DNA of 64,000 bases, from assembly GCF_037094495.1 (NCBI RefSeq), contig NZ_CP146612.1:1116001-1180000 (forward strand). The letters run 5' to 3'. Under the pieces are notes generated by a model. It saw nothing but the letters and a program-made list of their open reading frames with translations, was not told where the DNA came from and ran no database searches. The stretch is from Dehalogenimonas sp. W. GTDB taxonomy: Bacteria; Chloroflexota; Dehalococcoidia; Dehalococcoidales; Dehalococcoidaceae. Below are positions 1,901 through 41,365 of the stretch, piece after piece (position 1 is the first letter of the stretch; every line of letters begins with the position of its first letter). The translations under genes and the position numbers were made by a program.

Positions 1901-4566
1901 GACTTAATCACCTTTATCAGTTTGACCGCCGCCACTTTGTATTCCGGGATCCCGGCCACCGGGTCGGCTGCCGGAGAGGTCAGGATATTGGTGGCGGTTT
2001 CCGGGAAATGAAAGGTCATAAAGACCACCCCCTCAGCCAACTGATTCTTTACTTCAGCCTGAGCCGTAATTTCACCGCGGCGGGAACTGACCTTGATGGT
2101 ATCACCATCACTGATATTGAGTCTGGCGGCATCGTAGGGGGCTATTGCCAGCGTTTCCTGCGGTTGCAGCGTGAGCAGTCCGTTGACCCGCCTGGTCATG
2201 GTGCCGGTGTGGAAGTGATACAGACTGCGGCCGGTGGTCAGAATAAAGGGATATTCAGCATCTGTTTGTTCGGTCGATGGCCGGTATTCAATTGCCTTGA
2301 ACTGTCCCTTGCCACGGGTAAAGCGTTCGGTATGCAGCACCGGCGTCCCCGGATGCGTTGCCTCGGGGCATGGCCATTGCAGTCCGCCATCGTTCAATCG
2401 GTCATAGCTGATCCCCGCATATGACGGGGTAAGCGCATTTATTTCGCGGAATATCTCTGCCGGCCCTTCATAATCAAACCCCCGGCCGCCCAGCCGTTTA
2501 CCCAATTCGGCGGTAATCCACCAGTCCGGCCGGGCATCACCCGCCGGCTTTACGGCGCGGCGGATTCTTTGCACCCGCCGCTCGGTGTTGGTGAAAGTAC
2601 CGTCTTTCTCCGCGAAACTCACGGCCGGCAGCACCACATGAGCCAGGTCGGTTGTCTCGGTCGGGAATATATCCTGAACAATCAGCAGTTCCAGTTTCGC
2701 CAGCGTCTGCCTCACCCGGTTGGAATCGGCGTCGGACAGCGCTAGATTATCACCCACCAGGTACAGGGCTTTGATGCGGCCCCGGTCAATGGCGTCCATG
2801 ATTTCCGGTATGGTCAGTCCGGGTTGTTGCGGCAGTTTCACCCCCCAGGCGGCTTCAAACTTCTGCCGGCAAGCCTCAACGGCTGTTTCCTGATAGCCGG
2901 GATAAACATCGGGCAGTGCCCCCATGTCGCAGGCGCCCTGAACATTATTGTGGCCCCGTAAAGGGTTGACTCCGGCGCCGGCCCGGCCGAGGTTGCCGGT
3001 CAGCAGCGCCAGGTTGGCGATGGCTGACACGTTATCGGTGCCGTGAGAGTGCTGGGTGATGCCCATGGCGTAAAAAATACCCGCTGGTTTAGCGGCAGCG
3101 TACATTTCGGCCGCCGCCCGTATGTGGTCTAACGGCACGCCGCTGATCGCAGCGGCATGGTCAAGGTCAAAACCCCGCAGTGTTGCGGCCAGGGCCTCAA
3201 ACCCCTCGGTGCGGTCAGTGATAAAAGCTGAATCGTAAAGCCCCTCATCAATGATCACCTTGCACATGGCCGAAAGCAGCAGCACATCGGTACCCGGTCT
3301 CAGCTGAAGAAAGATATCAGCCTGGCTCCCCAGCGGTATCTTTACCGGGTTTATCACGATCAGGCGGGCGCCGCGGCGGACGGCCTTTTTGATCTCAAAT
3401 CCGATTACCGGGTGCGTTTCAGTGGTATTGGCGCCGATAATCAGCAAACAGCCGGCATCCTTGATATCGCCGATGGAGTTGGTCATGGCGCCGGAGCCGA
3501 AGGCCGTAGCCAGTCCGGCCACGGTGGGGCTATGGCACAGCCGGGCGCAATGGTCCACCGTGTTGGTGCCCAGAACCGCCCGGGCCAGCTTCTGAATCAG
3601 GTAATTCTCTTCGTTGGTAGCCTTGGCCGAGGCGATGACCGCCGTTTCCTCCGGACGATACCGGATCAGTTTGGAACAGGTATGTTCCAGGGCTTCTTCC
3701 CAACCGGTCGCCACCTGGACGCCGTCCCGGTTTTTTACCAGCGGCGTGGTCAGGCGTTCCGCATGGTGGACAAATTCCTTTATCCCGTAGCGGCCTTTGA
3801 CGCACAATCTGCCGTTGGAAGCCGGATTGGCTTCATCCCCTGTCACTCCGGTAATTCTGCCGCCCCGGATTTGTAGTTTTATACCGCAACCCACGCCGCA
3901 ATAGGGGCAGATGGTGGCTGTTTCTGAATCAGGTTTTACATAATCTTTAGGCACCAAGGCGGCGGTCGGGCAGTGAGCCACGCATTCGCCGCAGCTCCGG
4001 CAGTTGGTTTCAATCAACGGACGGGCGGCGGCCGTCCCCACCCGGCTTTCATAGCCGCGATCAATAAGTTCAATGGCGTTATTGCCGGTTATTTCGTCGC
4101 AGGCCCGGGTACAGCGGGCGCACAGGATACAGTAATTGCGGTCCAGGCGGAAAAACGGATTGGAGTCGTCAACGTCCTGAACCCGCCCGGAATGGGGCAG
4201 GCAGCGTTCGGTGAAGCCCAGATAGGCCGTCACCCGTTGCAGTTCGCAGTTCAGGTTTTTAACACAGGCCAGACAGTCCAGCGGATGCTCAGCCAGCAGC
4301 AGGTCAAGTACCGTCCGGCGGGCATCGGCCAGCGCCGGTGTATCGGTATGCACCACCATGCCTTCGGCCACCGGGGTAGTGCAGGCGGTCGGCAGGCCGC
4401 GCATCCGGTCTATCTCCACCACGCAGAGCCGGCAGCCGCCGTAGGGCTTGAGGTCCGGGGCGTAACACAGGTTGGGGATGTAAATCCCGGCGTCCCGCGC
4501 CGCTTCCAGCACCGTCTGCCCTTCAACGGCGATGATAGCTTGATCGTCAATACTGAGTTTAATCAT
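1897..4566 (-). CDS. Formate dehydrogenase-like molybdopterin oxidoreductase, catalytic subunit (Cys form)
   Basis: 889-residue NuoG/FdhA fusion type: N-terminal 2Fe-2S ferredoxin domain with Cys ligands (CYAPDLKPYGGCRLC), the His-Cys 4Fe-4S segment (HPLDCLACVKNLNC), two 4Fe-4S ferredoxin motifs (CILCARCTRAC and CRSCGECVAHCP), then a molybdopterin domain opening with CPYCGVGCGI and a C-terminal MoCo-dinucleotide domain. The metal ligand is a cysteine (ARLCHSPTVAG; codon at 3535-3537) where many formate dehydrogenases have selenocysteine. I chose the ATG at 4566 because the ferredoxin domain begins MIKLSIDD; an in-frame TTG seven codons upstream is the alternative. Together with the NuoF- and NuoE-like genes this predicts a soluble NAD(P)(H)-linked, possibly electron-bifurcating, formate dehydrogenase. 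The substrate is inferred from family resemblance. Confidence 0.85.
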   Translation of the reverse strand: MIKLSIDDQAIIAVEGQTVLEAARDAGIYIPNLCYAPDLKPYGGCRLCVVEIDRMRGLPTACTTPVAEGMVVHTDTPALADARRTVLDLLLAEHPLDCLACVKNLNCELQRVTAYLGFTERCLPHSGRVQDVDDSNPFFRLDRNYCILCARCTRACDEITGNNAIELIDRGYESRVGTAAARPLIETNCRSCGECVAHCPTAALVPKDYVKPDSETATICPYCGVGCGIKLQIRGGRITGVTGDEANPASNGRLCVKGRYGIKEFVHHAERLTTPLVKNRDGVQVATGWEEALEHTCSKLIRYRPEETAVIASAKATNEENYLIQKLARAVLGTNTVDHCARLCHSPTVAGLATAFGSGAMTNSIGDIKDAGCLLIIGANTTETHPVIGFEIKKAVRRGARLIVINPVKIPLGSQADIFLQLRPGTDVLLLSAMCKVIIDEGLYDSAFITDRTEGFEALAATLRGFDLDHAAAISGVPLDHIRAAAEMYAAAKPAGIFYAMGITQHSHGTDNVSAIANLALLTGNLGRAGAGVNPLRGHNNVQGACDMGALPDVYPGYQETAVEACRQKFEAAWGVKLPQQPGLTIPEIMDAIDRGRIKALYLVGDNLALSDADSNRVRQTLAKLELLIVQDIFPTETTDLAHVVLPAVSFAEKDGTFTNTERRVQRIRRAVKPAGDARPDWWITAELGKRLGGRGFDYEGPAEIFREINALTPSYAGISYDRLNDGGLQWPCPEATHPGTPVLHTERFTRGKGQFKAIEYRPSTEQTDAEYPFILTTGRSLYHFHTGTMTRRVNGLLTLQPQETLAIAPYDAARLNISDGDTIKVSSRRGEITAQAEVKNQLAEGVVFMTFHFPETATNILTSPAADPVAGIPEYKVAAVKLIKVIKS

Positions 4567-31157: not shown

Positions 31158-31244
31158 ACGCCGCCGGAGTCGTAATTATTGCCGGCAGCGGTTGCCCTGG
31201 CCGGGGCTTTACTGTTATCATGGGGGCACAATTTAATATCGTTA

Positions 31245-31330
31245 CTGGGGGAGCTGAAAAGCTGAGAGTTCCGGTCTGGCCGGACGACCCTTGGAACCTG
31301 GTCTCGGTAATGCGAGCGTAGGGAAGTAGC
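31245..31330 (+). promoter_or_regulatory. TPP (THI-box) riboswitch
   Basis: The conserved core is readable in order: GGGGAGCTGAAAAGCTGAGAG, then ACCCTTGGAACCTG, then TCGGTAATGCGAGCGTAGGGA (each slightly split by variable stems). This is the thiamine pyrophosphate aptamer and controls the AIR-synthase-like gene and thiE. Confidence 0.95.
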
Positions 31331-31338
31331 AGCACTCA

Positions 31339-31372
31339 GACCGGAAGACCTTTTCTTCTGGTTTTCTTTTTT
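31339..31372 (+). terminator. Riboswitch-linked terminator
   Basis: CCGGAAGA (31341-31348) pairs with TCTTCTGG (31354-31361, one G-U pair) and is followed by TTTTCTTTTTT. It lies directly after the TPP aptamer, as expected for ligand-dependent transcription termination. Confidence 0.85.
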
Positions 31373-40013: not shown

Positions 40014-40226
40014 TCAATCAACCGAAGTAGCCATCCTCTTCTGCTTATATCCCAGCCCGATAAAATAGAATCCGCCAATCATTGACGCAATATGAAATAC
40101 CACCGCCGGTATCTGTGACCAGACGGTCAGGCCTTCTTTCGCGGCGACCGCCGCGACAATAGTGCCGGCTCAGACAATGCCGATTACCAGCAGGGTGTAA
40201 CCTAATCCTTTATAAAATGAACTCAT
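40014..40226 (-). CDS. Candidate selenoprotein A: 70-residue two-helix membrane protein with in-frame UGA
   Basis: Frame: MSSFYKGLGYTLLVIGIV-[TGA]-AGTIVAAVAAKEGL..., ending MATSVD-TGA. The UGA is codon 19 (40172-40170), inside the first membrane helix; the second helix is about residues 38-58 (AVVFHIASMIGGFYFIGLGY). AAGGAGAGGA precedes the ATG, ahead of the UGA, and the frame stays open and membrane-like for 51 further codons. A perfect stem with GGTC loop follows. It lies 12 bp downstream of candidate selenoprotein B, in one operon. I do not recognise the family. Alternatives are UGA read as Trp, or a pseudogene; two adjacent genes with the same interruption make random decay less likely. 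Confidence 0.75.
40139..40156 (-). promoter_or_regulatory. SECIS-like hairpin after the UGA of protein A
   Basis: On the minus strand, TCGCGGC-GGTC-GCCGCGA is a perfect 7-bp stem with a GGUC tetraloop. The stem starts 13 nt and the loop 20 nt after the UGA. The GGUC apex matches the E. coli fdhF SECIS loop. Ala/Val codons could produce some of this symmetry by chance. Confidence 0.65.
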
Positions 40227-40238
40227 GTCATCCTCTCC

Positions 40239-40427
40239 TTAAGTCTGTCCCACGGCTTCAATGAACATCCACAGTGCCAGCAGGGCGAAGGTGCCATGGA
40301 AGGCGTAGCCGACCATTGAATTCTTGCTGAATGGTTTCTCTTTTTTGCGGAACACGCCCGCCATAATCATGACTATTCAGACAAGCTGTAAGATGAAGAA
40401 GAATACTGTGCCAATCCACCAGCCCAT
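40239..40427 (-). CDS. Candidate selenoprotein B: 62-residue two-helix membrane protein with in-frame UGA
   Basis: Frame: MGWWIGTVFFFILQLV-[TGA]-IVMIMAGVFRKKEKPF..., ending FIEAVGQT-TAA. The UGA is codon 17 (40379-40377) within helix 1; helix 2 is about residues 43-58 (AFHGTFALLALWMFIEA). AAGGGGAGG lies before the ATG. It is the first gene of the operon, behind a near-consensus promoter. The context LQLV-U-I resembles IGIV-U-A of protein A, hinting at a shared motif or common origin. No family is recognised; a membrane redox or electron-transfer role is conceivable for a Sec in a helix, but unsupported. Confidence 0.72.
40347..40361 (-). promoter_or_regulatory. Possible SECIS hairpin after the UGA of protein B
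   Basis: GCGGG-CGTGT-TCCGC (five pairs, one G-U) begins 15 nt after the UGA, with the loop starting 20 nt after it, the same placement as in protein A. The stem is weaker than the other two; outer pairs are interrupted by mismatches. Confidence 0.45.
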
Positions 40428-40470
40428 ATTTGTCGCCTCCCCTTATAGTTATTATCTTTAACCGTTTATG

Positions 40471-40499
40471 ATAATAGTCTTCGGCGAGGCGCAAAGCAA
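40471..40499 (-). promoter_or_regulatory. Sigma70-type promoter of the UGA-gene operon
   Basis: On the minus strand TTGCTT (40499-40494), a 17-bp spacer, then TATTAT (40476-40471). Transcription would start near 40464, giving a leader of about 37 nt before the first ATG. Confidence 0.7.
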
Positions 40500-40559: not shown

Positions 40560-40918
40560 GGCGAAGCTGTGGTAAACTGAATTAATTGACTTGTTATTGG
40601 AGAATAACATGACCGAAAAAGAATCCCTGATATCCAAAGCTCTTGACCTGGCCGAACTTATTGCTTACCAGCCTGGAGCCGTAGTCAGCCGCACGCTGAC
40701 CGATAAGCCCGCGGGCACTATTACCCTGTTTGCCTTTGATGAGGGGCAGGACTGTCGGAGCATTCCGCGCCCTATGATGCCTTCGTCTATGCCGCGGATG
40801 GGACGGCTGACGTCACCATCGCCGGTAAAGTAAACCAGGTCAGCAAGGGGCAGATGATAATCATGCCGGCTAATGACCCTCACGCATTGCGCGCGACCGC
40901 GCCGTTCAAGATGCTGCC
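40560..40918. repeat. Direct repeat, left copy (cupin gene and its upstream region)
   Basis: Begins GGCGAAGCTGTGGTAAACTG and runs to the IS3 junction; it is near-identical to 47903-48261 apart from scattered substitutions and a one-base deletion. The two copies flank the lipid/membrane cassette. Confidence 0.92.
40609..40918 (+). pseudogene. Cupin gene, frameshifted and 3'-truncated
   Basis: It starts like the intact copy at 47952 (MTEKESLISKALDLAELIAY) and stays in frame to DEGQ. There the run GGGGCAGGGACTG of the intact gene is GGGGCAGGACTG, a one-base deletion that shifts the frame. Similarity continues at DNA level through the second cupin motif to AAGATGCTGC, where IS3-family DNA begins, so the last ~11 codons are missing. 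The upstream region is the same in both copies, so the pseudogene may still be transcribed. Confidence 0.9.
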
Positions 40919-41110
40919 GGTCAATCAGCTTCATGATCTGATGCTCCTCATCGGCTAGCTCTCTGGGACGATAGTAGTACCCGGAACGGCTGATACCCAA
41001 GAGCTCGCACCGGCGGCTGACCGGCAGCTCTTCCCCGGAGATCTCCGGGGCTGCTACTTTGCTGCGTCGTTCCTCGATACTCAGCGACGCAGTACATGCT
41101 CTAAAAAATC
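40918..41110 (-). pseudogene. IS3-family OrfB, N-terminal fragment
   Basis: In the -1 frame after the slippery site the sequence reads SIEERRSKVAA, then PVSRRCELLGISRSGYYYRP and HQIMKLIDRQ, which is the start of an IS3 OrfB. It then runs into cupin DNA. The DDE catalytic domain is absent. The junction shares a few bases (GACCGGCAGCATCTT) plausible for either partner, so microhomology recombination is likely. Confidence 0.85.
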
Positions 41111-41365
41111 CTTCTCTACCTTAAGCTGGCCAATCTGCTGGTACAGCTGGGCAACCAGGTTTTCATCCTGTTGCTGCTTACGAGTATGCCCTTCGCTGAA
41201 GATACTGGCGGCTTCGTCCTGAAGGGCCTTTTTCCATTTGGTGACCTGAGTCGGATGAATCTGGTGCCGGGCGGCGATTTCAGCAATGGTTTGCTCCCCT
41301 TTGAGCGCTTCCAAGGCTACTTTGGCCTTGAAGGCCGGATTGTGGTGTCTGCGGTTTCCTTTCAT
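41081..41365 (-). CDS. IS3-family transposase OrfA
   Basis: 94 residues with the helix-turn-helix of IS3 OrfA proteins: MKGNRRHHNPAFKAKVALEA, GEQTIAEIAARHQIHPTQVT, then a leucine-zipper-like C-terminus (LVAQLYQQIGQLKVEKDFLE). It binds the terminal repeats in intact elements. TTTTTTA near its 3' end (41108-41102 on the minus strand) is a slippery site for the -1 frameshift into OrfB. OrfA itself looks complete; its partner is truncated. Confidence 0.92.
   Translation of the reverse strand: MKGNRRHHNPAFKAKVALEALKGEQTIAEIAARHQIHPTQVTKWKKALQDEAASIFSEGHTRKQQQDENLVAQLYQQIGQLKVEKDFLEHVLRR

Follow-up and report, generated by a model that had tools for sequence, protein, structure and literature searches.

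A tandem pair of two-helix membrane proteins, each with a conserved in-frame UGA predicted to encode selenocysteine

The window analysed here, a stretch of 64,000 nucleotides, carries on its minus strand two short tandem reading frames, which we call ORF1 and ORF2 (Table 1). Written with U for the in-frame UGA, ORF1 translates as MGWWIGTVFFFILQLVUIVMIMAGVFRKKEKPFSKNSMVGYAFHGTFALLALWMFIEAVGQT and ORF2 as MSSFYKGLGYTLLVIGIVUAGTIVAAVAAKEGLTVWSQIPAVVFHIASMIGGFYFIGLGYKQKRMATSVD. An earlier reading of this DNA from its letters only (hereafter the sequence-only reading) had described tandem minus-strand frames of 62 and 70 codons, each with a ribosome site of its own and each broken by a single in-frame TGA inside the first membrane helix. 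Both frames are where it had placed them, both have a good ribosome-binding site, and the two TGAs are seen at codons 17 and 19. It had also put a promoter, TTGCTT-17-TATTAT, ahead of the genes. The letters are indeed there, but they share only 8/12 bases with the consensus, and a consensus scan reported no promoter-like site. Sequence upstream of ORF1 is barely conserved, the ribosome site excepted.

Table 1. Genes and signals of the ORF1-ORF2 pair, with positions counted from the first letter of the window.
Feature	Position	Strand	Remarks
ORF1	40239-40427	(-)	62 aa; predicted two-helix membrane selenoprotein; stop TAA; orthologues in 8 genomes
ORF2	40014-40226	(-)	70 aa; predicted two-helix membrane selenoprotein and ORF1 paralogue; final stop TGA; orthologues in 8 genomes
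In-frame UGA, ORF1 codon 17 (Sec17), membrane helix 1	40377-40379	(-)	TGA in 8/8 genomes
In-frame UGA, ORF2 codon 19 (Sec19), membrane helix 1	40170-40172	(-)	TGA in 8/8 genomes
ORF1 SECIS-like hairpin GCGGG-CGUGU-UCCGC	40347-40361	(-)	loop starts 20 nt past UGA; frozen codons
ORF2 SECIS-like hairpin UCGCGGC-GGUC-GCCGCGA	40139-40156	(-)	loop starts 20 nt past UGA; compensatory stem replacement
ORF1 ribosome-binding site AGGGGAGG	40436-40443	(-)	from sequence; purine-rich site in congeners too
ORF2 ribosome-binding site AGGAGAGG	40232-40239	(-)	from sequence; purine-rich site in congeners too
Weak promoter-like element TTGCTT-17-TATTAT	40471-40499	(-)	from sequence, 8/12 consensus bases; only possible

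The gene divergent from the pair (40591-41365) encodes a cupin that is frameshifted and truncated relative to an intact 122-aa copy in the congener G010, and remnants of an IS3-type transposase (40665-41000 and 41081-41365, minus strand) adjoin it. A TPP riboswitch lies elsewhere in the window, at 31237-31341 (Rfam RF00059, 64 bits). Downstream of the pair, coaBC is found in the congeners, whilst the neighbours differ in more distant relatives. We considered coaBC as a functional partner and rejected it: its position reflects the genome backbone and it is not near the pair in the distant genomes. No conserved partner gene was found across the congener and distant-genome neighbourhoods. In the distant genome G203 (locus L032), a Cys-rich ORF that is YgbA-like by eye lies approximately 360 nt downstream of ORF2 on the same strand; it was not seen beside the pair in other genomes.

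A search of same-family genomes found ORF1 and ORF2 side by side, always in this order, in 5/8 congeners, the window's own genome counted. These five are probably Dehalogenimonas, and the sister genus of the congeners would then be Dehalococcoides. A class-wide search yielded one further, distant genome with both genes (G203), and a phylum-wide search two more from another class (G549 and G465). All three belong to the Chloroflexota. In each of them the genes are again in tandem, both with TGA at the homologous codon, and identity to the window copies goes down to 39% for ORF1 and 24% for ORF2. In locus L040 of G465, ORF2 shows no in-frame ATG, GTG or TTG after AGGAG followed by AATAACATC, which points to an unusual start codon or an assembly error. 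Over the eight genomes the homologous site is TGA in 16/16 genes and TGC, TGT or TGG in 0/16. Because UGA has been kept at the same codon in 16 genes of eight genomes, the pair and its UGAs are more than a chance occurrence. Three congeners that possess SelA and tRNA-Sec (G007, G008 and G009) lack both genes, and the pair is therefore dispensable. No relatives of the pair were found in viral contigs, and none of ORF1 on plasmids. Further genome matches at E 0.003-0.05 (G325, G366, G148, G219, G062, G359, G131, G373, G364 and G109) were excluded as homologues; the match in G325 is a permease, that in G373 lies antisense to another frame, and most of the remainder fall within longer uninterrupted frames.

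The sequence-only reading had proposed asking whether homologues carry UGA, Cys or Trp at these positions, and had named TGG homologues, frameshifts and stops elsewhere as evidence against itself. The answer is UGA in all 16, with neither Cys nor Trp in any, and no frame is otherwise broken. It had overlooked that a Cys form is apparently lacking. None was found in samples of 393 genomes of the class and 400 of the phylum, in the 29-genome class of G549, or in a pattern scan of limited reach and sensitivity over 84,980 species genomes. A Cys form may yet exist elsewhere, because the genome searches were samples and the scan was of limited sensitivity.

The machinery for decoding UGA as selenocysteine accompanies the pair. 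The Rfam tRNA-Sec model scores 69-76 bits in 8/8 pair-bearing genomes; it scores other tRNA genes up to ~52 bits, and only the strong match in each genome was counted. SelA was found in each of the eight congeners, also in the three that lack the pair, and in none of the three genomes of the sister genus. In the window's own genome ARAGORN calls tRNA-SeC(tca), a SelB-like factor lies near it, and in-frame UGA codons occur in SelD and in a formate dehydrogenase. The same set has been reported for D. alkenigignens, whose genome paper mentions multiple putative selenoproteins and gives just two examples, SelD and formate dehydrogenase (PMC4918011). The molybdopterin oxidoreductase in the window (2494-3756) is an 897-aa uninterrupted frame without UGA; the UGA-containing formate dehydrogenase sits elsewhere in the genome. 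In the mechanism that we propose, SelB and tRNA-Sec very probably decode UGA 17 of ORF1 and UGA 19 of ORF2, guided in each case by the hairpin with its loop 20 nt further on.

These hairpins are much as the sequence-only reading had described them, with loops about 20 nt past the UGAs and, in ORF2, a perfect 7-bp stem and a GGUC loop. The distance from UGA to loop start is 20 nt in 16/16 genes. Published constraints for a bSECIS are an apical loop of 3-9 nt, an upper stem of 4-16 bp, a G among the two opening bases of the loop (usually as G[G/U]), a UGA-to-loop distance of 16-37 nt and a minimum free energy <= -7.5 kcal/mol (PMC13188914). Loops and stems of both genes lie within these ranges (ORF1, 5-nt loop and 5 bp, or 6-nt and 4 bp in G004; ORF2, 4-5-nt loop and 6-7 bp), as does the spacing in both genes of all genomes, and the loops CGUGU (ORF1) and GGUC[U/C] (ORF2) carry the expected G. 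The ORF2 hairpin has an energy of -13.9 to -22.9 kcal/mol, below the threshold in 8/8 genomes. For ORF1, folded as 45 nt, the energy is <= -7.5 kcal/mol in 6/8 genomes and stays at -6.5 in the window copy and in G010; in two of the six, G006 and G465, the minimum-energy fold of the 45 nt differs from the common hairpin. Against synonymous randomisation the folding energy of the ORF1 hairpin was not significant, being ordinary for its codons, and that of ORF2 gave a mixed result. Because folding energy alone is unremarkable for ORF1, we take the support for its hairpin from conservation.

The ORF2 stem is UCGCGGC-GGUC-GCCGCGA within the genus and (U/C)GGGAGG-GGUC[U/C]-UCUCCC(G/A) in G203, G549 and G465. 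Both its 5′ and 3′ strands have been rewritten, with the pairing and the GGUC loop retained. The ORF1 stem is nearly invariant, and its covariation is limited to one pair, where G549 and G465 have a closing A-U in place of G-U, and to a one-base shift in G004 (GCGG-CGUGUU-CCGC, 4 bp and a 6-nt loop). As to the covariance that the sequence-only reading had asked about, ORF2 shows compensatory stem replacement and ORF1 almost no variation to draw on. Codon usage also bears on the hairpins. Among twelve degenerate codons for invariant residues of ORF1, only those for V25, F26 and R27, in the hairpin, are a single codon in all eight genomes (Fisher p 0.0045). Within the genus, 5/5 codons of the Ala-Ala-Val-Ala-Ala stretch of ORF2 are frozen, compared with 1/9 other four-fold codons (Fisher p 0.003). 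Moreover, SelD and the formate dehydrogenase of the same genome likewise show a UGA followed by a hairpin, with resembling 5-nt loops of the form N-G-(U/G)-N-U (CGGGU and AGUUU, respectively) and a spacing of 16-18 nt. They differ from the pair in being enzymes of known function and unrelated sequence, with no Sec in a membrane helix.

For ORF1 the five congeners give a pN/pS of 0.22 on the 5′ side of the UGA and 0.21 on its 3′ side; the corresponding values for ORF2 are 0.41 and 0.38. Judged by these ratios, purifying selection at the protein level is equal on the two sides of the UGA in both genes. This bears on the possibility that the frames are pseudogenes, contain sequencing errors, or encode peptides of 16-18 aa ended by UGA before a chance open frame. 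One stop per frame would suit such an account, but the downstream frames are conserved at the ratios of 0.21 and 0.38, they are kept down to 39% (ORF1) and 24% (ORF2) identity, and the position of the stop is shared by eight genomes, so that we consider it extremely improbable. It is also very improbable that the UGA is decoded as Trp, or that general readthrough passes it with no Sec inserted. Trp could fit in the hydrophobic helices where the sites lie; the invariant Trp residues of the same proteins, however, are encoded by TGG and never by TGA, the site itself is TGG in 0/16 genes, and a hairpin with a conserved loop follows each UGA. Furthermore, UGA serves as the genuine terminator in the window's ORF2, and in ORF1 of G203, G549 and G465. 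Given this termination and the TGG codons for Trp, UGA does not act as a sense codon in general here. Decoding of both UGAs as selenocysteine is strongly supported by comparison, and we put the probability that ORF1 and ORF2 are two Sec-decoded, paralogous and functional membrane proteins at roughly 0.9. The new two-protein selenomembrane system suggested by the sequence-only reading gains support from UGA in 16/16 genes, selection past the UGA, the hairpins, and tRNA-Sec in 8/8 genomes.

AlphaFold models have helices at residues 2-26 and 35-60 in ORF1 (pLDDT 92.9) and at 2-28 and 35-68 in ORF2 (pLDDT 80.1); a Foldseek search against the PDB gave no significant match for these two-helix hairpins. 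Counting residues from the turn, Sec17 and His44 of ORF1 lie at a similar depth in the hairpin, as do Sec19 and His45 of ORF2. Both Sec, both His, Met22 of ORF1 and Met49 of ORF2 are invariant in 8/8 genomes, and the eight-genome alignments contain no conserved Cys or second Sec in either chain. Models and conservation support a Sec/His arrangement in which each protein would fold in the membrane as a hairpin of two helices, the first carrying Sec and the second, at an equal depth, the invariant His. Profile comparison shows the two proteins to be paralogues (hhalign probability 95.5, E 1.5e-8), in an alignment that pairs the two Sec and likewise the two His. They would have arisen by duplication and always co-occur. 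In 8/8 genomes ORF1 has 2-5 K/R in its loop and 0-1 at its termini, and ORF2 has 4-8 at its termini and 0-2 in its loop. This opposite charge bias implies, by the positive-inside rule, opposite insertion in the membrane. Predicted from charge alone, the loop of ORF1 would face inside and that of ORF2 outside. The same bias makes an antiparallel four-helix heterodimer of ORF1 and ORF2 rather probable, and such a heterodimer would place two Sec/His sites within the membrane, one nearer each face. The paralogy, the opposite predicted topology and the invariant His at the depth of Sec had escaped the sequence-only reading.

Pfam and NCBIfam models matched the two proteins and all their relatives at chance level only, a weak match to the SMR model excepted (best E 1.8e-4, in four ORF2 members; ORF1 has no SMR match). 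EbrA and EbrB are paired small multidrug resistance proteins, dual-topology paralogues of opposite charge bias. The pair resembles them in being tandem duplicated small membrane proteins with opposite K/R bias and a probable antiparallel heterodimer; tandem paralogy together with opposite K/R bias, the criteria for a dual-topology paralogue pair, is found by sequence in 8/8 genomes. Unlike SMR proteins, its chains have two helices rather than four, and Sec/His takes the place of the SMR Glu. MerE and MerF are small two-helix Hg transporters with Cys in a membrane helix. Like MerF, MerE and MerT (PF02411, with a predicted Sec form; PMC13188914), ORF1 and ORF2 are small membrane proteins with Cys or Sec in a membrane helix. 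Unlike MerT, the pair lacks vicinal Cys, each chain has a single Sec, and there are two co-occurring paralogous subunits. PF02411 matched no member at E<=1, and no conserved Cys lies near Sec, in contrast to the C/SxxU motif of the MerT selenoproteins. The pair also recalls TsoA/B/C/X/Y and other multi-selenoprotein operons (NCBIfam), where several predicted selenoproteins are treated as one system; in contrast to the Tso systems, no NCBIfam selenoprotein model (Tso, Sao, UXX-star and others) matched ORF1 or ORF2 at E<=1 among the 16 proteins.

A 2026 inventory of 119 prokaryotic selenoprotein families holds nothing recognisable as the pair by name, domain or motif (PMC13188914). The statement that neither family is known agrees with this, there being no Pfam or NCBIfam match and no named entry among those 119. 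A second statement, that Sec within the membrane would be very unusual, holds in part. It is rare, but not unheard of, because the inventory predicts several membrane selenoproteins: a mercuric transport protein (PF02411, MerT-like), a YeeE/YedE transporter, the SO_0444 Cu/Zn efflux transporter and the permease SaoP (PMC13188914).

As to function, we would rank transfer of a soft ligand first, an electron relay next and a cofactor anchor last. We tentatively suggest that the Sec/His sites may bind a soft ligand, for example a thiophilic metal ion or a chalcogenide, and pass it across the membrane. We favour such a site over a thiol enzyme of the classic CxxU kind because a conserved partner Cys is missing from both chains, and because Sec and His, with Met nearby, share one membrane depth. 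A transmembrane redox relay, which likewise takes the UGAs to be Sec, would have the two selenols join with partners in a diselenide or selenenyl-sulfide and move electrons across the membrane, as do the thiols of DsbB/VKOR-like and CcdA-like proteins. Sec is usually redox-active, its positions match in the two paralogues, and the hosts are anaerobic and use Sec. We nevertheless think a relay unlikely, since neither chain has a conserved second Cys or Sec, an antiparallel pair would set the two Sec at different depths, and no conserved redox partner gene adjoins. The invariant His of each subunit, in helix 2 and at similar depth, could also suggest that the two His ligate heme or another redox cofactor, as happens between the two small subunits of cytochrome b559, with Sec, again accepted as such, tuning or protecting it. 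However, this would leave the retention of Sec in 16/16 genes unexplained, and opposite topology would not position the His as in b559; we regard an anchor of this kind as quite improbable. More broadly, we see it as a serious possibility, though at somewhat under even odds, that the pair is an obligate-Sec family without a Cys form, whose oppositely oriented duplicated subunits make up a mini-transporter or relay with paired Sec/His dyads within the bilayer.

The novelty here lies in the pairing of two-helix proteins and in the apparent absence of a Cys form. According to the authors of deep-Sep, Cys homologues now seem to exist for every known selenoprotein (PMC12013277). Methods for detecting bacterial selenoproteins lean on such homologues, and a Sec-only family would therefore be invisible to them. 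The pair could be one of many Sec-only families that Cys-based methods have missed. Moreover, it would place Sec chemistry inside a membrane helix of a very small paired unit, and the function of a selenol in the bilayer would thereby become directly testable.
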